The position numbers and the translations under genes are program-made. Below, in pieces: positions 4,788-18,905 of a stretch of DNA of 64,000 nucleotides (positions within the stretch are counted from its first letter, which is position 1; each line of letters opens with the position of its first letter). Origin of the DNA: Mitsuokella sp. oral taxon 131 str. W9106 (GTDB lineage: Bacteria; Bacillota; Negativicutes; Selenomonadales; Selenomonadaceae); the NCBI RefSeq assembly GCF_000469545.1, contig NZ_KI273057.1, positions 1 through 64,000 of the forward strand. The letters run 5' to 3'. Below the pieces are notes generated by a model. The model was not told the DNA's origin, did no database searches, and worked only from the letters and a program-made list of their open reading frames with translations.

Positions 4788-5588
4788 ATGAAGCGCGAAC
4801 ACAAGGAAGAAATGAGGGCGCGTGCGCGCAACATCGCGCTCGAAATTGCTTACGACGGCACGGCGTATTGTGGCTTTCAGCGGCAGAGACCGCCGATTTA
4901 TGCCGTGCAGAACGTCTTGGAGGAAATGCTCGGCCGCGTCTTCGGCGATACGATTGAGCTTGCCGCCGCGGGGCGTACGGACACAGGTGTGCACGCCCTC
5001 GGGCAGGTCGTAAACTTTTTTACGGATGGCAGGATCCCGACGGAGCGTATTGCGCGCGCCGTCAACAGCCTCCTGCCATCGGATATTGCCGTTCGCCGTG
5101 CGGCGGAGGTCGGGCGTGACTTTTCGGCGCGTCACAGCGCGCGAAGCAAGTCGTATATCTATCGCATTCAGCAGGGGGAAACGCCGAACCCGCTCACGGC
5201 GCGCTATGCGTATTACGAGCGTCGTACGCTCGATATCGAGGCGATGCAGGCGGCGCTCGGCGTGATTCTCGGCAGGCACGACTTTTCGTCGTTCCGCGCG
5301 AGCGGCGGTGCGTCGATGAGCCCCGTCCGCACGATGTTTGAAGCGCGGATCGAAAAGAAGGTGGACGCCATCATCGAATGCCGCATCCACGGCGACGGAT
5401 TCCTTTACCACATGGTGCGCAACATCGTGGGCACGCTCTTGCATGTCGGGCTTGGAAATATTACGCCTGAGGACTTTGCCACGATCCTTGCAGCGAAGTC
5501 GAGAAGCCGTGCGAGCGCGACGGCTCCTGCCTGTGGGCTGTGCCTGGAGAGGGTTTGGTATGATCGAGAAATTTGGCAGGCAGTGTAA
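4788..5588 (+). CDS. truA: tRNA pseudouridine(38-40) synthase TruA
   Basis: TruA isomerises uridines 38-40 in the anticodon stem-loop of many tRNAs. The 266-residue length is usual. The catalytic aspartate is Asp65 in AGRTDTGVHA, and the family features YDGTAYCGFQRQ near residue 22, KSYIYRI and FLYHMVRNIVGTLLHVG are present. The ATG at 4788 has AAGGA 8 bases upstream; the frame is open back to 4737 but that start lacks a binding site. The ecfA1-ecfA2-ecfT-truA order is common in Firmicutes. Confidence 0.96.
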   Translation: MKREHKEEMRARARNIALEIAYDGTAYCGFQRQRPPIYAVQNVLEEMLGRVFGDTIELAAAGRTDTGVHALGQVVNFFTDGRIPTERIARAVNSLLPSDIAVRRAAEVGRDFSARHSARSKSYIYRIQQGETPNPLTARYAYYERRTLDIEAMQAALGVILGRHDFSSFRASGGASMSPVRTMFEARIEKKVDAIIECRIHGDGFLYHMVRNIVGTLLHVGLGNITPEDFATILAAKSRSRASATAPACGLCLERVWYDREIWQAV

Positions 5589-5602
5589 GTAAGAATTGTT
5601 AC

Positions 5603-5631
5603 TTGCGCCGCCTGCCTGTTTGCGTTAGAAT
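5603..5631 (+). promoter_or_regulatory. Promoter of the activase gene
   Basis: TTGCGC, a 17-base spacer and TAGAAT lie just after the truA stop and about 70 bases before the next start, giving the large gene its own transcript. Confidence 0.6.
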
Positions 5632-5698
5632 GATACAGAAGCTTTTATGTGGCTTGGTTTCTTTCTTATATTACGGTAACACTAGGTGGTGTATGATA

Positions 5699-8600
5699 AT
5701 GGATGCAGCACTCAATGTAGGGATTGACGTAGGGTCGACGACAATCAAGCTCGTCGTGCTCGACCATGAGAAGCAGATTATTTGTAAGAACTACGCGCGC
5801 CATTTCTCCGAAATCGGCAATGCCCTTCAAGAGAATCTGACGCGACTGAAGCGCATCGTAGGCGAAAAGAAATTTTCGTTCGCGCTGACGGGGTCGGCGG
5901 GCATGGGCATTGCCCAGCGCATCGGACTTCCCTTCGTGCAGGAGGTCATTGCCTGCGCGACTGCGGTCAAGGAGCTCATCCCGCAGACGGACACCGTCGT
6001 CGAGCTCGGCGGCGAGGACGCGAAGATCACGTACTTCGGTGCAGCACCTGAGCAGCGCATGAACGGCGTCTGTGCGGGCGGAACGGGATCGTTCATCGAT
6101 CATATGGCATCCTTGCTCTCGACGGATGCGTTGGGGCTGAATGCGCTCGCAGAAAAGGGCAAGCAGATTTACTCGATCGCGTCGCGCTGCGGTGTCTTCG
6201 CCAAGACGGACGTGCAGGCGCTCATGAACGACGGCGCGGAGAAGGCGGACATTGCGCTCTCCATCTTTCAGGCCGTCGTCAACCAGACCATCGGAAATCT
6301 CGCACAGGGACGTCCGATCGGTGGACACGTCGCACTCCTCGGCGGCCCGCTGCATTTCCTGCCGGCACTCAAGCAGCGCTTTATCGAAACGCTGAAGCTT
6401 GACGAGGCGCACGTCGTCGATGTCGATTATGGGAACTACTTCGTTGCGATGGGCGCAGCACTTTCGGACGAGTCGAAAATCATCAATACGACGGAGCTCG
6501 AGTCGTGCATCGAACGCGCCAAAACAGCTGCGGCAAGCGAGACGCGCAAGGCGGACTTCACGCTCTTTGCGGATGAGGCGGACTACGAGGTGTTCAAAGC
6601 GCGACACGACCGCGACAAGGTAAAGCGCGGTGAACTTAAACGCTATGAAGGTCCGGTCTACATCGGCATTGACGCAGGGTCGACGACGACAAAAATCGCG
6701 GCGATCGGCAAGGACAAGGAGATCCTTTATACCTCGTACGGCAGCAATCAGGGCTCGCCGCTCGCAACAGTCGTATCGGAGATGAAGTCGCTTTACTCGG
6801 AAATGCCGCCTAAGGCGCATATCGCGGGCACGATGACGACGGGCTATGGCGAGGCGATCGTCAAGGCGGCGCTTCATGCCGATGGGGGCGAAGTCGAGAC
6901 GTTTGCCCATCTGCGTGCGGCGCAGGAATTCTGTCCCGATGTCTCGTTCGTCCTCGATATTGGCGGGCAGGACATGAAGTGTTTTTTTGTCAAGGAAGGC
7001 ACAATTGGCAATATCACGCTCAATGAAGCGTGCTCGGCAGGCTGTGGCTCGTTCATCCAAAACTTCGCCGAAGGCCTTTCGATGACGCCGGCAGAGTTCG
7101 CCGCAAAAGCGATCGAGTCAAAAGCGCCCGTCGACCTCGGAACGCGCTGCACGGTCTTCATGAACTCGAAGGTCAAGCAGGCGCAGAAGGAGGGAGCGGA
7201 GGTAGCCGACATCTCGGCAGGCATCGCGTTCTCCGTCATCAAGAATGCGCTTTTCAAGGTCATGCAGCTTAAGGATGTGCGCGAGCTCGGTGACCATATC
7301 GTCGTGCAGGGCGGCACGTTTTACAATGACGCCGTGCTCCGCTGCATGGAAAAACTCTTAGACCGCGATGTCATCCGTCCCGATATCGCGGGACTCATGG
7401 GAGCTTACGGCGCGGCGATTCTCGCGCTCGAGGCGGGGACGGAGCACTCCGCGCTGCTTTCCGCCGAGGCGCTCGATACGTTTAAGACGCAGACGACGTC
7501 GTATCGCTGCGGCCACTGCGGCAACAAGTGCCTCATCACGATGCAGAAGTTCCCCGACGGCGGCAAGTACTTCACGGGCAACCGCTGCGAGCGCGGCGTC
7601 GGCGGCGTGAAGCACGAGGCGGATGTGCCAAATCTCTACGCGTACAAGTATGATCGCCTCTTCCGCTACTACCGTCCGCTTGAGCATCCGACGCGCGGGC
7701 GTATCGGCATACCGCGCACGCTCAATATGTATGAAGACTATCCATTTTGGTTCACGTTCTTCACGTTCCTTGGCTATGAAGTCGTGCTTTCGGGCAAGTC
7801 GAGCGCGAAGATGTACTACAAGGGCATGGCGACCGTTCCGTCGGATTCGCTCTGCTATCCAGCAAAGCTCGTGCATGGGCATATCATGGATCTCGTCGAA
7901 AGAGGCGTCAAGAAGATCTTCTATCCGTGCGAGCCGTACAACATGCAGGATGAGGAACATCCTTCGGCGAATCATTTCAACTGTCCGATTGTCGCGTCCT
8001 ATGCGGAGAATATCCGTGGCAATATGGATATCCTGCGTGAGAAGAACATCGACTTCATGCAGCCGTTCCTTCCGATTCACGACGAGAAGCGTCTCGTCAC
8101 GCGCCTCTACGAGGAAATCGGAGCACGGGAGGATCTCACGAAGCAGGAGATCAAGGCAGCCGTCGAGGCAAGCTACAAGGAAATCGAGAGGTATCGCCAA
8201 GACGTGCGCGACTACGGCGCGAAAATTTTGGAACGCATTGCCAGGACGGGCGAGCAGGCGATCATGCTCGTCGGGCGCCCGTATCATATCGACCCCGAAA
8301 TCAACCATGGCGTGCCGGAGATGATTCAGTCGTACAGCCTTCCGATTCTCTCGGAAGACGCTGTCTATCATATCCCGGTGAAAAGCAGCAAGCTTGAAGT
8401 CGTCAACCAGTGGAGCTATCATGCACGCCTTTACCATGCGGCACAGTTCGTCGCTGAACACCCGAACATCACGCTCATACAGTTCAGCTCGTTCGGCTGT
8501 GGCTTAGACGCGCTGACGACGGGGCAGGTCAAAGACATCCTCGAGGCGCACAATCGCATCTATACGATGATCAAGCTCGACGAAGTCTCAAATCTCGGTG

Positions 8601-9949
8601 CGGCGCGTATCCGCCTGCGCTCGCTGATGGCGGCACTCGCGCGCAGGACGCCGATGCCGTATCAAGAGGTAAGGCCCATCGAGCGTCCTCACTTCACCGA
8701 AGACTGCAAGAAGACGCATACGGTTCTCGCGCCGCAGATGGCACCGATCCACTTCGAGCTTCTGCACGCGGCGCTGACGAAGTACGGCTACGACATGGTC
8801 ATCCCGCCGATGCCCGGCAAGAAAGCAATCGACCTCGGCCTGCGCTACGTCAACAACGATATGTGCTATCCGGCGATCGTCGTCATCGGTCAGCTCATTG
8901 CCGCGCTGAAGTCGGGCAAGTACGACCCCGACCACACGAGCATCATGCTCTTTCAGACGTGCGGCGCGTGCCGTGCGACGAACTACATGAGCGTGCTTCG
9001 TCAGGCACTGCGCTATGCGGGCTTCCCGCAAGTGCCCGTGTTCGCCTGCCGCGGATTGCCGGAGGAGACGGATTCCTTCACGCTTGACCGCCCGATGCTC
9101 GTTGACGCAATCAAGGCAGCGATATACGGGGATCTCCTCATGAACGTCCGCAATCGCATGATGCCGTACGAGATTACGAAAGGCCAGACGGAGGCACTCT
9201 ACAAGAAGTGGATGGCACGCTGCAAGAAAGAGATCGCACAGGGCAGCTTCCTGAAGTTCCGCCGTCAGGTCAAGGAAATCGTCCGTGACTTCGACAATCT
9301 GCCCATTGACGAGCACCTTTGGAAGCCGAAAGTCGGCATCGTCGGCGAAATTCTCGTCAAGTATCATCCAGTGGCGAACAACCACATCGAAAGGGTCTTG
9401 ATGCAGGAGGGTGCGGAAGTCGTCATGCCGGATTTCGTCGACTTCTTCCTCTACTCTGCCTATGACTCGATCGCGAAGCACAAGCTGCTCGCAGGCAAGT
9501 ACAAGGATCAGCTCTTCGGCAAAATGTTCATCAAGATCCTTGAGTTTTTCCGCCATCCGATGCGCAAGGCACTCAAAGCGAGCAAGCACTTCATGCCGCC
9601 GCATACCATCGAGCATACGGCGAGTCTCGCTGCCCGCCACGTCAGTCTCGGCAACATGGCGGGCGAGGGGTGGTTCCTCACGGGCGAGATGGTCAAGCTC
9701 CTTGAGAGCGGCGTACCGAATGTCGTCTGCCTGCAGCCTTTCGGCTGCCTGCCGAACCACATCACGGGCAAAGGCGTCATGCACGATCTCCGCACAAGCT
9801 ACGAAGGAGCGAACATCACGGCAATTGACTGCGATGCAGGTTCTTCAGAGGTCAACCAGCTCAATCGTCTGAAGCTCATGCTCGCCGTTGCAAAAGAGCG
9901 CGGTCCGAAGCAGGATCCGAATCCGGAGCAGGCCGCAAGCCGCTCGTGA
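5699..9949 (+). CDS. Giant acyl-CoA dehydratase activase-related protein
   Basis: The 1416-residue protein has two ATP-binding activase (BcrA/BadF/HgdC-type, ASKHA fold) domains in tandem, followed by regions resembling the 2-hydroxyacyl-CoA dehydratase subunit. Domain 1 opens with GIDVGSTTIK near residue 8, and domain 2 with GIDAGSTTTK near residue 323. Each has an acidic GGED/GGQD loop and two cysteines in CAGGTGSF...CGVF and CSAGCGSF...CTVF, the positions that hold the bridging [4Fe-4S] cluster in HgdC. The later part contains GIPRTLNMYEDYPFW and repeated CYPA motifs of the DUF2229 family. By homology it couples ATP hydrolysis to low-potential electron transfer. Its substrate is unknown and no acyl-CoA genes are adjacent. 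The start at 5699 (9 bases after AGGTGG) is preferred over 5693. Confidence 0.9.
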   Translation: MDAALNVGIDVGSTTIKLVVLDHEKQIICKNYARHFSEIGNALQENLTRLKRIVGEKKFSFALTGSAGMGIAQRIGLPFVQEVIACATAVKELIPQTDTVVELGGEDAKITYFGAAPEQRMNGVCAGGTGSFIDHMASLLSTDALGLNALAEKGKQIYSIASRCGVFAKTDVQALMNDGAEKADIALSIFQAVVNQTIGNLAQGRPIGGHVALLGGPLHFLPALKQRFIETLKLDEAHVVDVDYGNYFVAMGAALSDESKIINTTELESCIERAKTAAASETRKADFTLFADEADYEVFKARHDRDKVKRGELKRYEGPVYIGIDAGSTTTKIAAIGKDKEILYTSYGSNQGSPLATVVSEMKSLYSEMPPKAHIAGTMTTGYGEAIVKAALHADGGEVETFAHLRAAQEFCPDVSFVLDIGGQDMKCFFVKEGTIGNITLNEACSAGCGSFIQNFAEGLSMTPAEFAAKAIESKAPVDLGTRCTVFMNSKVKQAQKEGAEVADISAGIAFSVIKNALFKVMQLKDVRELGDHIVVQGGTFYNDAVLRCMEKLLDRDVIRPDIAGLMGAYGAAILALEAGTEHSALLSAEALDTFKTQTTSYRCGHCGNKCLITMQKFPDGGKYFTGNRCERGVGGVKHEADVPNLYAYKYDRLFRYYRPLEHPTRGRIGIPRTLNMYEDYPFWFTFFTFLGYEVVLSGKSSAKMYYKGMATVPSDSLCYPAKLVHGHIMDLVERGVKKIFYPCEPYNMQDEEHPSANHFNCPIVASYAENIRGNMDILREKNIDFMQPFLPIHDEKRLVTRLYEEIGAREDLTKQEIKAAVEASYKEIERYRQDVRDYGAKILERIARTGEQAIMLVGRPYHIDPEINHGVPEMIQSYSLPILSEDAVYHIPVKSSKLEVVNQWSYHARLYHAAQFVAEHPNITLIQFSSFGCGLDALTTGQVKDILEAHNRIYTMIKLDEVSNLGAARIRLRSLMAALARRTPMPYQEVRPIERPHFTEDCKKTHTVLAPQMAPIHFELLHAALTKYGYDMVIPPMPGKKAIDLGLRYVNNDMCYPAIVVIGQLIAALKSGKYDPDHTSIMLFQTCGACRATNYMSVLRQALRYAGFPQVPVFACRGLPEETDSFTLDRPMLVDAIKAAIYGDLLMNVRNRMMPYEITKGQTEALYKKWMARCKKEIAQGSFLKFRRQVKEIVRDFDNLPIDEHLWKPKVGIVGEILVKYHPVANNHIERVLMQEGAEVVMPDFVDFFLYSAYDSIAKHKLLAGKYKDQLFGKMFIKILEFFRHPMRKALKASKHFMPPHTIEHTASLAARHVSLGNMAGEGWFLTGEMVKLLESGVPNVVCLQPFGCLPNHITGKGVMHDLRTSYEGANITAIDCDAGSSEVNQLNRLKLMLAVAKERGPKQDPNPEQAASRS

Positions 9950-10786: not shown

Positions 10787-10922
10787 GATGCGCGCAGCGA
10801 TCCAGACAGGACGCGTTTTTGAGCCTAGGGCATGTGCCGGATGGGCAATCGGGAGGACGCTGCATGACAAGAACGCGGGCGAGCCGATGTATGCGATGAA
10901 GGAATCCTTGTTATTGTGGGGC

Positions 10923-10952
10923 TTGCGCATATTTTTTGCAGGCTGTTACAAT
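10923..10952 (+). promoter_or_regulatory. Probable promoter of the phosphoethanolamine transferase gene
   Basis: TTGCGC, an 18-base spacer and TACAAT lie about 70 bases before the chosen start at 11021. This supports a start downstream of the GTG at 10916. Confidence 0.45.
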
Positions 10953-11020
10953 ATTTATGGGCGAAGGGGCATTTTTACCACGAAAGCGGGGCAAGGGAAA
11001 TTTTGGGACAGGTCAGAAGG

Positions 11021-12730
11021 ATGGTGCTTCGGATTTGGGCACGCTGCACGCAGACGGTTGAACATGCGGCGTTTTGGCTCATCGCGCTTTACGTGCTGAA
11101 CTTTATCTCGATTGCGTGGCTCAATCTGCACCAATACGGCGCAGCACAGATGCCCGTACTCGTGACAGACGCCGTTTTCCTGTTCGGCGCAACATTGCTC
11201 TACGTGATCCTGCTCGGCTTCGTGCCGATTCGGCGCGTGCGCCGTGCGCTCTTTTTCGGCTCGTTTTGCATCTCGGCGCTGCTCGCCGTATTGGAACTCT
11301 TTGCCATTGGGCAGTATGAGACGCTTATCGGCGCAGGCATCATCACGGCGATGCTTCAAACGAATCCGAATGAGGCAAAGGAGTTCCTTTCGATGTATGC
11401 CTCCGGGCGCGGGCTTCTTTTCAGTCTCCTGTCCATCGTCCTCATCGCCTTTTGCTACCGCCGCTTTTCCGCTGCGCGACGGATGCCTTTTTCGCGCCAT
11501 TTGCGCACGCGCCTTTTCATGGTCGTGCTTGTGCTCGGTGCTCTGTCGGGCATCCTGCTATGGCAGACGTTTCATTCGTTCATTGTGAATGATTCGCTCG
11601 ACATACCTGCCGTGCGCGTTGCGCGGTCAGCGGATACGGCCGTGCGCAATATCGAAGCGTTTGAAAAGCTCAAGGGAGAGACAGCACGCGAAGTCACGCT
11701 GACGGCGAACGCGAGTGATACGCCCTATGTCATCTTTATCTTAGGAGAGTCGACGAACCGCGCGCGCATGCATCTTTACGGTTATCCGCTTGAAAATACG
11801 CCGGGACTCGATGCGATGGAAAAAAGCGGGGAAATCGCCATCTGCCGCGATGTGATAAGTCCCGAGACGGCGACGGTCGCCGTGCTCCAAAAGCTCTTTA
11901 CGTTTGCCGATGCGGAGTCAGACCGCGAATGGTATACGTATAACAATCTCATCGACGTCATGCGCGTGGCGGGCTACAAGACATTTTGGCTCTCGAATCA
12001 GGAGAGCTCTGGAATTTGGGGGAATGTCGCGCAGCTATTTGCCGAGCGCAGTGACTATCGGCGCTTTACGCGCCTGCGTGACTCCCATGAGGATATGGGA
12101 GAGCATGATGAGGCTCTCTTTCCGCTCGTCGACGAGGCGCTTGCACAGAGCACAGAGAAAAATTTCTTCGTCATCCATCTCATGGGCGGACACGGGCTCT
12201 ACTACATGCGTTTCCCGTATCTCTTTACGAAGTTTACGGCGGCTGATGTGCCGCCGCCGCAGGACACGCTTTCCGAGGAGAAGCGAACAGAGATCGCGCA
12301 GTACGAAAACGCGCTCTTTTACAACGATTTCATTGTCACGAGTCTCATCGGCAAGTTCGCGGAAAAGGATGCGCTCATCGTCTACCTGCCTGACCATGGC
12401 GAAGCCGTCTACGACAACGGCGTATTCTCTGGGCATGTTGAGGAGCATCCGACGAAGGAGACGCTCGAAGTTCCGCTGATCTTTTGGGCATCTCCCGCCT
12501 ATCGCGCGCATCATCCTGAGAAATGGGCGGCAATCGAAGCGGCGAAAGACCGTCCCTATATGACGGATGATTTCATCCATACGCTCCTCGATTTGCTCGG
12601 CATTCAGACGGAGGAGTACGATCCTGCCAAAAGTATCGTGAACCCTGCTTTTGATGCGAAAAGGCATCGCGTCGTGAAGGGGCATGATTACGATATGGAG
12701 TTTAAGGGAATGACTACAGGGATAAAGTAG
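11021..12730 (+). CDS. Phosphoethanolamine transferase-like inner-membrane sulfatase-fold protein
   Basis: The protein has about 569 residues. The N-terminal third has hydrophobic helices (for example FWLIALYVLNFISIAWLNL, LFGATLLYVILLGFV, ISALLAVLELFAIG). A soluble alkaline-phosphatase/sulfatase domain follows, facing the periplasm. It carries GESTNRARMHLYGYPLENTP with the nucleophile threonine expected in EptA/CptA enzymes, HLMGGHG, and LPDHGEAVYD with metal-binding Asp-His. The family adds phosphoethanolamine from phosphatidylethanolamine to lipid A or core sugar, which changes surface charge and polymyxin sensitivity. The start is uncertain: 11021 (ATG) fits the predicted promoter, and a GTG at 10916 would add 35 residues. 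The acceptor is not predictable. The next gene starts 14 bases downstream. Confidence 0.85.
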   Translation: MVLRIWARCTQTVEHAAFWLIALYVLNFISIAWLNLHQYGAAQMPVLVTDAVFLFGATLLYVILLGFVPIRRVRRALFFGSFCISALLAVLELFAIGQYETLIGAGIITAMLQTNPNEAKEFLSMYASGRGLLFSLLSIVLIAFCYRRFSAARRMPFSRHLRTRLFMVVLVLGALSGILLWQTFHSFIVNDSLDIPAVRVARSADTAVRNIEAFEKLKGETAREVTLTANASDTPYVIFILGESTNRARMHLYGYPLENTPGLDAMEKSGEIAICRDVISPETATVAVLQKLFTFADAESDREWYTYNNLIDVMRVAGYKTFWLSNQESSGIWGNVAQLFAERSDYRRFTRLRDSHEDMGEHDEALFPLVDEALAQSTEKNFFVIHLMGGHGLYYMRFPYLFTKFTAADVPPPQDTLSEEKRTEIAQYENALFYNDFIVTSLIGKFAEKDALIVYLPDHGEAVYDNGVFSGHVEEHPTKETLEVPLIFWASPAYRAHHPEKWAAIEAAKDRPYMTDDFIHTLLDLLGIQTEEYDPAKSIVNPAFDAKRHRVVKGHDYDMEFKGMTTGIK

Positions 12731-12743
12731 GGAGGGGTCTGCT

Positions 12744-14243
12744 ATGAAACTGGCGATTCTCGGCACGGGCATGATCGTGCACGACGCACTCAAGGCGCTC
12801 GCGTTCGTGCCGGAAATCGAGCGCACCGCAATATGGGCACGGTCTCACAGCAAAGAGAGCGCGGAGGCGCTTGCAAGAGAATACGGCATTGCACACGTCT
12901 ATACGGATTACGAAGCGCTTCTTCGCGAGACGGAGGCAGACTTCGTCTACATCGGTCTCGTCAATACGGCGCACTTCCTTTACGCGAAGCGGGCACTCGA
13001 GGCGGGCAAGCACGTCATCGTCGAAAAGCCATTCACTGTGACGGGCAAGGAAGCGCGCATCTTGCGGGATTTGGCGGAGGAAAGGCGGCTCTTTCTCATC
13101 GAAGCGGTGACGACGCTCCATCTTCCGAACTTCCATGTCATTGAGCGTTTTTTGCCGCAGATCGGCAGGATTCGCTCCGTACAGGCCAATTTTTCGCAGT
13201 ATTCGAGTCGTTACGATTCCTATCGCACGGGCGATGTCAAGCCTGCATTTGACCCCGATTGTTTCGGCGGTGCCTTAAACGACCTCGGCAGCTACAATCT
13301 CAACTTCATCGTCCGACTTTTTGGCGTGCCGGAAAAGGCAGTTTACGCGCCGAACCTTGGCTTCAATGGCGTCGATACGTCGGGAGCCGCTCTGCTCGTC
13401 TATGAAGACTTCGTCGCGACGGCCGTGAATGCGAAAGACTCGGAAAGTCCGAGCGCAATTTTGATTCAGGGCGAGAAGGGATGGATTCGCGCTGACGGCA
13501 CGCCAAACGCAATCAAATCCGTGACAGTCTGCATCGATAAAAAGACGCAGACGATAAATGAAAACGCATACGAGCACCGTATGGTACATGAGTTCAAGGC
13601 GTTTTGGGAAGCGTATGAAGCGGACGATTACGGCTTCGTGCGTCGCGGGCTCGTGCAGTCCGTCGCCGTCATGGGACTCTTGGACACGTTGCATGCATAT
13701 GCCGCTTCGGGTTCTTTTGACAAGCCATGTCACTTCAAGGAGAACATTATGAACATCAAGAAAAACTTTCAAAAGTTGCCGCTCGGAATTCCGCTCGCTG
13801 CATCGACGGCAGGAACGATACTCACGCTCTTCCTCGACGGCAGCAAGCGGTTGCACGTTCTTTGCGGTACGGCACTCGCCGTGCTCTCAGCAGCACATGG
13901 CGCACAGCATTTGCTGAAGATCAAATGCGATGCAAAGAAGCTCTTGTGCAGAGGCTGTTCCGCACGGGAAGGAGCACGTATCTCGCTCGATGCGTTTTGC
14001 AAGTCGCTTACGGTTCGCAGTGCGATCGCAGGGCGCGTGCGCGTGGGAAGTCCTATGCTCATCGGAAACGAACCGCTCGCAGCGCAGATTGAAGCGTATG
14101 CAAAGACATTCCAAGGCGTAGATGACGCGGTGGCCAATACGGCGACGGGCAGCCTGCTCATCACTTACGAGCCGGAGGAACTGCGCGGCGTGCCGGGGCT
14201 TGCCAAACTCGAAGCACAAGTTTTGCGGAAGAACGCAAGATAG
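12744..14243 (+). CDS. Gfo/Idh/MocA oxidoreductase fused to a membrane/HMA-like module
   Basis: Residues 1 to about 325 form a dinucleotide-binding oxidoreductase: GTGMIVHDALKAL at 7-19, VEKPFTVTGKEA with the family Glu-Lys-Pro, and GGALNDLGSYNLNF. From Met336 the sequence changes: hydrophobic LPLGIPLAASTAGTILTLFL, then HVLCGTALAVLSAAHGAQHLL, a CRGC pair at 402-405, and about 50 residues (AIAGRVRVGSPMLIGNEPLA to NTATGSLLITYEP) resembling an HMA_2 heavy-metal-associated domain. No stop separates the parts. However, AAGGAG lies 6 bases before an ATG at 13749, so the second module may also be made separately. The substrate is unknown. GGGAGGGG precedes the first ATG, close behind the transferase gene. 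Confidence 0.85.
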   Translation: MKLAILGTGMIVHDALKALAFVPEIERTAIWARSHSKESAEALAREYGIAHVYTDYEALLRETEADFVYIGLVNTAHFLYAKRALEAGKHVIVEKPFTVTGKEARILRDLAEERRLFLIEAVTTLHLPNFHVIERFLPQIGRIRSVQANFSQYSSRYDSYRTGDVKPAFDPDCFGGALNDLGSYNLNFIVRLFGVPEKAVYAPNLGFNGVDTSGAALLVYEDFVATAVNAKDSESPSAILIQGEKGWIRADGTPNAIKSVTVCIDKKTQTINENAYEHRMVHEFKAFWEAYEADDYGFVRRGLVQSVAVMGLLDTLHAYAASGSFDKPCHFKENIMNIKKNFQKLPLGIPLAASTAGTILTLFLDGSKRLHVLCGTALAVLSAAHGAQHLLKIKCDAKKLLCRGCSAREGARISLDAFCKSLTVRSAIAGRVRVGSPMLIGNEPLAAQIEAYAKTFQGVDDAVANTATGSLLITYEPEELRGVPGLAKLEAQVLRKNAR

Positions 14244-14368: not shown

Positions 14369-14439
14369 GGATTTGTTGAGCAAAAGACGCTGCATGAGAA
14401 TCGACGGCGAAAGAATGAATGAAATGTATGGGGGACGAA

Positions 14440-15348
14440 ATGGAATTTCGGCAACTGGAGTATTTTTGCATGATCAGTGAGCTGGAGAATTTCACGCGTA
14501 CGGCGGAGGTGCTCCATGTCTCGCAGCCGTCGGTCACGAAGGCGATCAAGGCACTCGAAGCGGAATTGGGGCTTATGCTCATTGACCGCAGCCAAAAGCA
14601 TGTCGAGCTTACGGAGGAGGGCAGGGCGTTTCTCGTTCATGCAAAGCGCATCATGCGTGACGCAGATGAAGCGAAACGCGACATGATGCGTTTTCGGCAC
14701 GACTGCAGTGGAACGGTGCGTTTCGGGATCCCGCCGATGGTGGAGGCGTATCTTTTTCCCGATCTCTTTGTGAAGTTTCGCGCGGCATTTCCAGACATCC
14801 ATCTCGATGTGCAGGAGTTCGGCGATTCGGACGAGGTGCGCCAGCGCGCTGACATCGGAGAACTCGATTTCGGCATCGTGCTCGGAAATCCCGCTGAGCA
14901 ATGGGAACACAGCATGGCAATCATGCACGACACGATGCGTCTCTGTCTCGCTCCCAACCATCCGCTTGCGGGACAGGATGAAATCCGCTTTTCTGATCTG
15001 AAAGAGGAAAAGTTTATCCTTCAGCAGCCGCGCACGTATCAGTACCGTGAGACCTTCTCTCGCTGCACGGAGCAGGGATTTACGCCGGAAATTGTGCTGA
15101 GCACGTCGCAGACGAAGACGATCAAACAGCTCGTCGTGAGTGCGATGGGCATTTCCGTTCTTCCGGACTTTGTCGTGCACGCTGATCGCAGCATGGTACG
15201 CAAAAAGCTCGTGCCGCCGATGGAGCTTGCGGTTTTCCTCTACTGGAACGGACATAAGCGGAGCAGCGCCGTCGATGACCGATTCATGCACTTCATTCAG
15301 GACTACACGTCGTCGCCGGAGTACAAGCAGCATTTTAGGCAGGTGTAA
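14440..15348 (+). CDS. LysR-family transcriptional regulator
   Basis: The 302-residue protein has an N-terminal winged helix-turn-helix at residues 1-60 (MEFRQLEYFCMISELENFTRTAEVLHVSQPSVTKAIKALE shown by its key motifs FRQLEYF, SQPSVTKAI, ELGLMLIDR). A two-lobe effector-binding domain follows. The effector is unknown. The start at 14440 has GGGGGAC upstream, and seven upstream codons are open but unsupported. Its stop is 2 bases from the smc start, which is unusual because no metabolic target gene is beside it. It may regulate itself, the operon, or distant genes. Confidence 0.93.
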   Translation: MEFRQLEYFCMISELENFTRTAEVLHVSQPSVTKAIKALEAELGLMLIDRSQKHVELTEEGRAFLVHAKRIMRDADEAKRDMMRFRHDCSGTVRFGIPPMVEAYLFPDLFVKFRAAFPDIHLDVQEFGDSDEVRQRADIGELDFGIVLGNPAEQWEHSMAIMHDTMRLCLAPNHPLAGQDEIRFSDLKEEKFILQQPRTYQYRETFSRCTEQGFTPEIVLSTSQTKTIKQLVVSAMGISVLPDFVVHADRSMVRKKLVPPMELAVFLYWNGHKRSSAVDDRFMHFIQDYTSSPEYKQHFRQV

Positions 15349-15350
15349 GC

Positions 15351-18300
15351 GTGCAGCTAAAGCGTTTGGAAGCATACGGCTTCAAATCCTTTGCGGATAA
15401 GATATCCATCGAGTTCGACAAGGGCATCACGGCAATCGTCGGACCAAACGGAAGCGGAAAGAGCAATATCACGGATGCGATTCGCTGGGTGCTCGGCGAG
15501 CAGAACGTGCGCAATCTGCGCGGTACGAAGGCGGAGGATATCATCTTTACGGGGTCGGCAGAGCGCAGGGCGCTTGGACTCGCTGAGGTTTCGCTCATCT
15601 TTGCAAACGAGGGGGATCTTCCCGTTGATTTCCGTGAAGTTGTCGTGACGCGTCGCCTCTATCGAAGCGGCGAGAGCGAGTTTTACATCAACCGTTCACG
15701 CTGTCGCTTGAAGGATATATACAATCTCTTCGCCGATACGGGCATCGGCCACGACGGCATGAGCATCATCGGGCAGAACCGCATCGATGACATCCTGAAC
15801 AGCCGTCCTGAAGAGCGCCGCGCATTCTTTGAGGAGACGGCAGGCATTACGAAGTACCGCAATCGAAAGCGCGAGACGGTGCGCAAGATCACGGATACGG
15901 ACAGCAATCTCGTGCGCGTGCGCGACATTATCCACGAGATAGAAAACCAGCTTGAGCCTCTTGCGCGCCATGCCGAAAGAACGCGCAGCTACAATGCACT
16001 GAATGAATCGTACAAAGCCTGCAAGCTTACGAAGCTTGCAGGCGACTTTGCGTGCGAGAGCGCACGCAAGGCGGAAAACGATGTGAAGCTCGAAAAGGCA
16101 CGCGACGAGGAAGTCGAGGCGAGCGCACAGATCCGTGTGGCAGAGGCTGAAAAGGAAATGCTAGACCAAGGGATCCTGACCATCGAAGCTGCGATGCAGG
16201 AGAAGGCACAGGAGAACGAAGCACAGCGTCAAAAGATCGAACAGGCAGAGCGTGAGATGGCGGCGCTGCGCGAGCGTCAAAGACAAAGCGAGGCGGCACA
16301 CAAGCGCATTCTCGCGCGGCGCGCTGAGCTTTCAAGCGAGATCGCGGCAATTGTCGCGGAGATCGGCAAGCTCACCGCACTTGAGCAGGATCAGAAAGAG
16401 CACCTGCAAAAGAGCGAGGCGGCGCTGCGGGAAGAAAAAGAAGAAGCGAGCAAGGTTGCCGCACGCGTGAGATTGTGTAGGGACGAGGCGCGGACGGCGC
16501 GTGAAAAGCGAGCCGAAAAGCAGCAGGAGTTTGCGCAGAAGCAGCAGGAACTTGCTGTCCTCGATCGCGACATCGAAAAGGAAGAAGAGGGAAAGGATAA
16601 CCGTGCGCAGGAGATACGAGCGGCAAAGGAAAGCCTTGCACAGTACGAGAAACGAAAGGAAAAACTCGCGCATGAGAAGGAAGCGCAGGAGAACGAGCGC
16701 AGCGCTGCGCGGCGGGAACAGGCGGCCACCGAGAAGAAGGAACAGGAGATGCGCCGTGCACTCCGCGATCTTGACGCACACATCATGGCACTTCGTCAAA
16801 AGCAGACGGCAGCAGAGAGCAAGGTGCAGGTGCTCGCGCGCATGCAGCAGGCCTACGAGGGATTTGGCAAAGCGACGAAGGCTGTCTTGAAGAGTCATGA
16901 GAGCTGGCGTGGCGGGATTGCGGGTGCGATTGCGGAACTCATTGACGTGCCGAAAGACTGCGTGACGGCAATCGAGACCGCGCTCGGCGGCAGCCTGCAG
17001 AATATCGTGACGCAGGATACGGATACGGCGAAGGCGGCAATCGCATTTCTAAAGCGTGAGCGTCTCGGACGCGTGACGTTTTTGCCGCTCTCGACACTCG
17101 TCACGCGCCGTCCGCCAGACGAGGCGGTAAGAGGCGCAGCAGGCGTTATTGGCTGGGCAAATGCGATCGTCAAGACGGAGGCTGCGTATCAAAGGGCGAT
17201 CGACTTCCTGCTCGCGCGGACGCTTGTGGTCGACACATTGGATCATGCGCTCGGCCTCGCTAGGCGGCACGGGCAGCGCCTGCGCATCGTCACGCTCGGC
17301 GGCGAACTGCTGAATCCGGGCGGTTCGCTATCGGGCGGCAGCAGGGGACATGCAGAGACAAGCTTTCTGAATCGAGGCGGGGAAATCGAGTTGCTTCGCA
17401 CCTCCTTGCAGGAATGGCATACGGAGCGTGCGACGCTTGCGGCGGCAAAGAAACAGTTGATCGAGGATGCGACAAAGGTTGAAACAGCGCGTCATACAGC
17501 AGAAGAGGCTGTCCGTGCAGCAGGCCTTGCATGTGCGGAGATGCGCGTCAACCTCGAACGCCTCAATGAAAATTTCTCGGAACAGCAGGGGAAGGTCAAA
17601 GCACTTGAAGAGGCGGCGGCGCGTGCAAGCGAAAGCTTTGCAAAGGTGCAGAATCGGCGCGTCTTTCTCGTGCGCGCCGTGCGTGCGGCGGAGCAGGAAG
17701 TGAACGCGTTCACGCGAGCCGAAGAGGCGGCGCGCGAACGGCTCGCCGATGCGGAAGAAGAAGCCAATACGTTCGCGGCTTCGATACAGGAACATGAACT
17801 GAGCCGTGCTGTCCTCGAACAGGAAGCCATGCGAAGCCGCGAGCACATCCTCCTGCGGCAGCGCGACAAGAAGCGAAGTGAGCGGGCACTCATTGAAAAC
17901 GAGCAGGAAGAAAGGGATCTCGCAGAGCTTGCTGGGCGTAGTACGGAGCGGCTTGCGTCTCTTTCGCACGATGCAAAAGCATGGCAGGAAGTCTTTCATG
18001 CGGGCAAGGCAGCGCGCGATGCACTCTATGCCAAGCGCATGGAAACCATCGAAAAAAGCCAAGCGGCCGACCAAAAGACACGTGCCATCGGACGCAAGCA
18101 CAGCGAGATACAGGCGCGCATCCATCAACTCGAACTTTCGGGTGCGAAAATGGAGCTTGCACTTTCCGAGTGGCAGGAGACGATTTTAGCGGAATACGGG
18201 TTGACGCCGGAGCGCGCGGAAGAAGAGGCGATCGACCTCCCGCCGCAGGAGCTTCACGCGAAGATGAAAGAACTCGAACGACAGATCGCAGCGCTCGGCC

Positions 18301-18905
18301 CCATTAATCCGAACGCTGTGCAGGAGTATGAGGAGCTGCGGGCACGCCATGCGTTCCTTGACAAGCAGGCGACCGACCTTGAGACAGCGAAAGGCGATCT
18401 CGCGCGCATCATCATGGAGATGGATGCCGTCATGACGCGCCAATTCAAGGAAGCCTTTGCGAAAATACAGGAATACTTTGCAGAGATTTTCGCGCGCCTC
18501 TTCGGCGGCGGCAAGGCGGAGCTGAAGCTTATAGACGAGACGGATGTCTTAAATACGGGGGTCGACATTCTCGTCGTCCTGCCACAGAAGAAACGGCAGA
18601 ACCTATCGGCGCTTTCAGGAGGCGAGCGCGCACTCACCGTCATCGCGCTGCTCTTCTCGTTCCTGCGCTACAGGCCATCGCCATTTTCAGTGCTCGATGA
18701 GATCGATGCGCCGCTCGACGAAGCGAACGTCGCGCGCTTCGGCAGCTTTCTAAAGGAATTTGCCGAGGGCACGCAGTTCATCGTCGTCACGCACCGCAAG
18801 GGGACGATGGAAGCCGTCGACACGATGTACGGCGTGACGCTCGAGGACGCGGGCGCCTCGAAGGTGCTTTCCGTCAAGCTTGATGAAGTGGGACCGGCAT
18901 CCTAG
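15351..18905 (+). CDS. smc: Chromosome segregation protein SMC
   Basis: SMC forms the ATP-dependent condensin ring that organises and segregates the chromosome. The 1184-residue length is standard. The N-terminal ATPase half carries Walker A GPNGSGKSN at 31-39 and QNRIDDILNSRPEERR. Long charged coiled coils flank a hinge around residues 515-670 (ending GGSLSGG). The C-terminal half has signature LSGGERALTVIALLFS and Walker B FSVLDEIDAPLD. The start is a GTG two bases after the LysR stop, so translation is probably coupled. ftsY follows within 20 bases. Confidence 0.98.
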   Translation: MQLKRLEAYGFKSFADKISIEFDKGITAIVGPNGSGKSNITDAIRWVLGEQNVRNLRGTKAEDIIFTGSAERRALGLAEVSLIFANEGDLPVDFREVVVTRRLYRSGESEFYINRSRCRLKDIYNLFADTGIGHDGMSIIGQNRIDDILNSRPEERRAFFEETAGITKYRNRKRETVRKITDTDSNLVRVRDIIHEIENQLEPLARHAERTRSYNALNESYKACKLTKLAGDFACESARKAENDVKLEKARDEEVEASAQIRVAEAEKEMLDQGILTIEAAMQEKAQENEAQRQKIEQAEREMAALRERQRQSEAAHKRILARRAELSSEIAAIVAEIGKLTALEQDQKEHLQKSEAALREEKEEASKVAARVRLCRDEARTAREKRAEKQQEFAQKQQELAVLDRDIEKEEEGKDNRAQEIRAAKESLAQYEKRKEKLAHEKEAQENERSAARREQAATEKKEQEMRRALRDLDAHIMALRQKQTAAESKVQVLARMQQAYEGFGKATKAVLKSHESWRGGIAGAIAELIDVPKDCVTAIETALGGSLQNIVTQDTDTAKAAIAFLKRERLGRVTFLPLSTLVTRRPPDEAVRGAAGVIGWANAIVKTEAAYQRAIDFLLARTLVVDTLDHALGLARRHGQRLRIVTLGGELLNPGGSLSGGSRGHAETSFLNRGGEIELLRTSLQEWHTERATLAAAKKQLIEDATKVETARHTAEEAVRAAGLACAEMRVNLERLNENFSEQQGKVKALEEAAARASESFAKVQNRRVFLVRAVRAAEQEVNAFTRAEEAARERLADAEEEANTFAASIQEHELSRAVLEQEAMRSREHILLRQRDKKRSERALIENEQEERDLAELAGRSTERLASLSHDAKAWQEVFHAGKAARDALYAKRMETIEKSQAADQKTRAIGRKHSEIQARIHQLELSGAKMELALSEWQETILAEYGLTPERAEEEAIDLPPQELHAKMKELERQIAALGPINPNAVQEYEELRARHAFLDKQATDLETAKGDLARIIMEMDAVMTRQFKEAFAKIQEYFAEIFARLFGGGKAELKLIDETDVLNTGVDILVVLPQKKRQNLSALSGGERALTVIALLFSFLRYRPSPFSVLDEIDAPLDEANVARFGSFLKEFAEGTQFIVVTHRKGTMEAVDTMYGVTLEDAGASKVLSVKLDEVGPAS

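Follow-up and report, generated by a model that had tools for sequence, protein, structure and literature searches.

Probable fusion of two ordinary, unrelated genes in one Mitsuokella genome: a Gfo/Idh/MocA oxidoreductase frame that continues into a two-helix HMA_2 protein

INTRODUCTION

Does a long continuous reading frame in a Mitsuokella genome encode a single enzyme, or two proteins whose genes have lost the stop codon between them? The window (the whole stretch of DNA analyzed here, 64,000 nucleotides of contig NZ_KI273057.1 of Mitsuokella sp. oral taxon 131 str. W9106) contains an open reading frame (ORF) of 499 amino acids (aa) at 12744-14243 on the forward strand, which has no internal stop. 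The first-pass annotation had described this frame as an oxidoreductase running into a 164-residue module, which is what the ORF contains, and had read the locus either as two genes recently joined by loss of a stop codon or as one gene producing two proteins, with a second start at an internal ATG (position 13749). We compared both parts of the frame with their relatives; searches for the module covered 189 genomes at the family level and 381 at the class level.

RESULTS

The features of the locus are listed in Table 1. Pfam assigned GFO_IDH_MocA to residues 2-116 (E 7.5e-21) and GFO_IDH_MocA_C3 to residues 139-249 (E 8.5e-9) of the 499-aa frame. Two hydrophobic stretches lie between the oxidoreductase and the HMA_2 domain (fusion residues ∼345-391, comprising module residues ∼10-29 and ∼34-56, with mean Kyte-Doolittle values of up to 1.54 and 1.21), in agreement with the two helices and the metal-domain-like end proposed earlier; the AAGGAG that had been reported six bases before the in-frame ATG is likewise present. 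The fusion sequence spanning the junction reads ...SFDKPCHFKENIMNIK. The first residues of the module (MNIKKNFQK) and those after the second helix (LKIKCDAKK) are lysine-rich, so that both ends of the module should be cytoplasmic, suggesting an N-in/C-in hairpin, and a dehydrogenase joined to a cytoplasmic N terminus would therefore be held at the cytoplasmic side of the membrane. AlphaFold2 with single-sequence input gave mean pLDDT values of 40 for the 499-aa fusion and 31 for the 164-aa module, too low for the models to be interpreted.

Table 1 Features of the fused locus and its upstream neighbor
Feature	Position	Strand	Evidence or remark
CptA/EptA-like phosphoethanolamine transferase	10916..12730	+	NCBIfam partial, best NF007933, E 1.4e-88, below cut-off
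Gfo/Idh/MocA oxidoreductase part, residues 1 to ∼330	12744..13733	+	PF01408 + PF22725
Junction: oxidoreductase C-terminal tail and putative former spacer	13689..13748	+	No frame-0 stop
TTTT run	13715..13718	+	With one base added in the run or shortly before it, TGA 13718-13720 would be in frame
Shine-Dalgarno AAGGAG	13737-13742	+	6 nt before in-frame ATG 13749-13751
Putative former separate gene: 164 aa, two transmembrane helices and HMA_2	13749..14240	+	PF19991, E 3.1e-10
HMA_2 domain (fusion residues 417-480)	13992..14183	+	Pfam, E 1.4e-9

The oxidoreductase part is well supported as a member of its family. The PF01408 NAD-binding domain scored 75.5 bits (cut-off, 24) and the PF22725 C-terminal domain 35.9 bits (cut-off, 27), the closest solved chains are 2ho5 and 4iq0 (E 1.2e-30), and the EKPF and GGALNDLGSYN motifs align with EKPF and GGALYDINIYN of the relatives; no NCBIfam equivalog cut-off was reached. 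In all relatives measured (45-59% identity), the oxidoreductase gene stands alone and encodes 314-337 aa. Among named records, the relatives belong to the Selenomonadaceae, with further matches in Lachnospiraceae and Prevotella. Most of them end in ...AGIVFPCDGQ-stop, and the ...ASGSFDKPCHF of the fused frame aligns with this C-terminal tail, which indicates that the oxidoreductase is complete, with a predicted natural end between about residues 325 and 335. The product of this first gene is a predicted cytoplasmic Gfo/Idh/MocA dehydrogenase.

Frame 0 contains no stop from 12744 to 14241, and the other frames carry a TGA at 13718 and a TGA at 13750. The codon-usage signal indicated coding in frame 0 on both sides of the junction and in no frame around 13704; residues 312-333 fall within the lowest 3 to 9% of gene windows, with residues 316-329 at the 3rd percentile. 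This poor codon usage fits an oxidoreductase tail followed by a former spacer, for which it is weak evidence. RNA folding at the junction and after 14240 did not go beyond that of shuffled sequences (z of 0.86 and 0.51, respectively), and we therefore do not claim an attenuator or a strong terminator. A scan of viral contigs for the junction, both as it stands and with one base added, gave no match, and neither did a plasmid search.

The module on its own scored 40.7 bits against PF19991, compared to 38.5 bits within the fusion (cut-off, 30). In the class-wide search (381 genomes), its homologues were spread over many genera, and all matches outside the Mitsuokella genome lay in frames of ≤224 aa, versus 505 aa here. 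Across the same 381 genomes, the two parts were apart in all relatives and fused only in the Mitsuokella genome; the long ORF throughout close relatives that would be expected of an established single enzyme was found in none. The nearest homologue is a stand-alone protein of 167 aa in genome G012, 48% identical, with the N terminus MKQSFKQSFQKLPLGLPL, compared to MNIKKNFQKLPLGIPL in the module. Dozens of other stand-alone modules (∼37-45% identical, ∼157-187 aa) also have matching N termini.

Most of the aligned stand-alone genes start within 3 codons of the position of ATG 13749 (6 codons for some shorter ones), and in most a purine-rich, Shine-Dalgarno-like stretch lies at about the same distance before the start. 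Because the stand-alone homologues begin there, mostly behind a Shine-Dalgarno sequence of their own, the comparison identifies ATG 13749 as the ancestral start of a second gene, and the earlier proposal of a second gene beginning at this position is borne out by the shared start. The motif by itself proves little, since AAGGAG precedes 3 of 400 internal in-frame ATGs in the genes of the window. Alone, AAGGAG plus ATG would be only mildly unusual; its meaning comes from the homologues that start at the same place.

The orthologous-locus comparison proposed in the first-pass annotation gave a split answer: the module is a separate gene in the relatives, but it is not found downstream of the oxidoreductase and usually lies beside a P-type ATPase gene. 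In 11 of the loci examined around module matches, the module immediately follows a heavy-metal P-type ATPase gene with which it is co-directional, and it closes an operon of the order short HMA_2 - 210-aa HMA_2 - ATPase - module. The ATPase operon of several other genera is instead headed by a module-type gene of full length. No locus examined, except that in the window, held both parts near each other. In the Mitsuokella genome, contig C23 carries the order short HMA_2 - 211-aa HMA_2 - ATPase without the module (L132), and the module lies on contig C8, so that the operon linkage seen in many relatives is absent here. In three genomes of genus g11 (G012, G072, and G073), that of the closest match included, the module likewise lies apart from the ATPase. 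The module gene therefore moves, and its functional tie to the ATPase comes from the conserved neighborhood in other genera only. Based on this neighborhood, our best guess by analogy is that the module itself may serve a heavy-metal P-type ATPase as its membrane-anchored partner. Literature searches found no paper on PF19991 and none on HMA2-domain P-type ATPases.

The ATPase operon is conserved within the Selenomonadaceae (L125:4083-7969; L132:7980-11011, the latter on Mitsuokella contig C23). Its heavy-metal P-type ATPase has the motif FSCGLKLS where CPC is usual. Some genomes encode, ahead of the short HMA_2 protein (99 aa), a further protein of 84 aa whose single helix and coiled tail give it a PacL-like outline. 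In both congeners, a module homologue (∼35% identical) follows a glucose-type PTS gene and not a metal ATPase gene (L116:8280-11117 and L117:10634-13458). A 720-aa gene adjoining a module homologue in genomes G001 and G002 was suspected to encode an ATPase and proved to be a glucose-type PTS transporter.

The phosphoethanolamine transferase gene upstream of the fused gene is co-directional with it and ends 13 nt before it. In the two congeners, the region upstream of the LysR-SMC pair has no match to the block phosphoethanolamine transferase - oxidoreductase - module, which points to a lineage-specific juxtaposition of oxidoreductase and module. The order LysR regulator - SMC (14419-18905 in the window) is kept in all three genomes of the genus. 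More distant phosphoethanolamine transferase homologues (28-30%) occur elsewhere in the Mitsuokella genome and in the congeners. A frame of 1,458 codons at 5573-9949 encodes a very large protein of the acyl-CoA dehydratase activase family with two activase stretches.

A CRGC pair had been pointed out in the module as well. The pair is present, but the alignment does not support a reading as a metal site: CRGC occurs in the linker of none of the aligned module homologues, some of which have other cysteines there and several of which have none. Since the pair is private to the fusion protein and the HMA_2 domain of the fusion is itself without a CxxC, a metal-binding role for CRGC is unsupported.

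DISCUSSION

We favor, with a probability of roughly 0.6, the explanation that two unrelated genes were joined in the Mitsuokella lineage, the module gene having been relocated behind the oxidoreductase gene before the stop between them was lost. The earlier idea of two genes joined by a missing stop is thereby kept, as the parts are separate in relatives; the notion that they were ancestral neighbors is rejected, as no other examined locus holds both and the module usually sits beside a P-type ATPase. In the favored sequence of events, a rearrangement would have put the module gene directly behind the oxidoreductase gene and away from its ATPase operon, and the stop of the first gene would then have been lost through a single substitution or a one-base insertion or deletion. 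Ribosomes reading on would produce the 499-aa protein, a dehydrogenase anchored at the cytoplasmic side of the membrane, and ribosomes starting at the AAGGAG/ATG of 13749 would produce the 164-aa accessory protein alone, which is probably still made. The selected function of the module would most likely be its old one, aiding the P-type ATPase, and the fusion itself would probably be neutral or nearly so. More tentatively, with the odds somewhat against it, the locus may hold a real, fixed fusion that tethers the dehydrogenase to the membrane by way of the P-type ATPase accessory module and has been caught early, with an intact internal start that lets one mRNA yield both fused and unfused protein.

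The competing explanations differ most in how they account for the missing stop. We consider it unlikely, if deserving of attention, that two separate adjacent genes only appear joined because a missing or extra base in the draft hides the stop of the oxidoreductase. If one base were added between ∼13619 and 13718, the TTTT run being one possible site, the oxidoreductase would stop at TGA 13718-13720 after residue 325 and so have the same length as its relatives; in the remaining frame, it would run to TGA 13750 and overlap the second gene by a classical ATGA, the four-base overlap common in coupled gene pairs (PMC10666635). Indels, errors, and adjacent-gene transitions typically account for singleton joins of separately conserved genes (PMC3711429), and the genome is a draft in 25 contigs (2.31 Mb). 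Yet errors do not usually arise in a run of only four T's, both the flanking genes and the remainder of the fused frame read uninterrupted, and a real stop loss would be equally easy because a single substitution separates each of five codons between residues 322 and 333 from a stop.

Two further readings take the fused protein as long established. An established two-domain enzyme with a single product, in which the HMA_2/transmembrane part either holds the dehydrogenase at a metal transporter or supplies a metal cofactor, would be in line with the open frame, the good frame-0 codon usage on either side of the junction, and a predicted topology that permits a tethered cytoplasmic dehydrogenase; we nevertheless find it very improbable, given that there is no fused relative, that the Shine-Dalgarno sequence and the old start are intact, that codon usage at the junction is poor, and that CRGC is unconserved. 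A fused ancestral state that was split in all other lineages is hardly credible: nothing was found in its favor, and the relatives of both parts are separate and unlinked across many genera and families. The joining of two unrelated genes in the Mitsuokella lineage is thus the reading that we retain.

Each part has clear counterparts among known proteins. The oxidoreductase shares the Rossmann NAD-binding domain and the EKP and GGALxDxxxYN motifs of the Gfo/Idh/MocA family (PF01408 and PF22725), and it has the length and end point of its relatives of 314-337 aa, but here the frame continues into another protein. Likewise, the module has the two N-terminal helices, the HMA_2 domain, the start, and the Shine-Dalgarno sequence of the HMA_2 (PF19991) proteins encoded in Selenomonadaceae ATPase operons, whereas it is unlinked from the ATPase operon and lies in frame behind a dehydrogenase. 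PacL1-type partners of P1B-ATPases in Mycobacterium are also small membrane proteins with a cytoplasmic part and a gene beside that of the ATPase (PMC9374683). PacL1, which works with CtpC in mycobacteria (PMC9374683), has one helix, Glu/Ala repeats, and DUF1490, in contrast to the two helices and HMA_2 of the module; the likeness is one of analogy, not homology. Our best guess is that the module might work as PacL1 does with CtpC; on present evidence, it is not a PacL homologue. In-frame internal starts near a domain border are also found in SpaO/SpaO-short and HrcQ (PMC13059759, PMC8553256), whose C-terminal isoforms are established and characterized, whereas the fusion described here is known from the sequence of one genome. 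A literature search for membrane fusions of Gfo/Idh/MocA proteins gave nothing relevant.

Taken as a whole, the comparisons argue that two ordinary genes are fused at this locus in a single genome, possibly just through a sequencing slip, and that no novel type of enzyme is involved. Provided that the stop is truly missing, the fusion would be very young, with the intermediate state (the old start and its Shine-Dalgarno sequence) still readable, and it would usefully illustrate the origin of multidomain proteins in bacteria. The locus also cautions that domain combinations found in one genome may mislead function prediction. The more useful by-product is the conserved operon of the metal P-type ATPase, which encodes up to three small HMA_2/membrane proteins.
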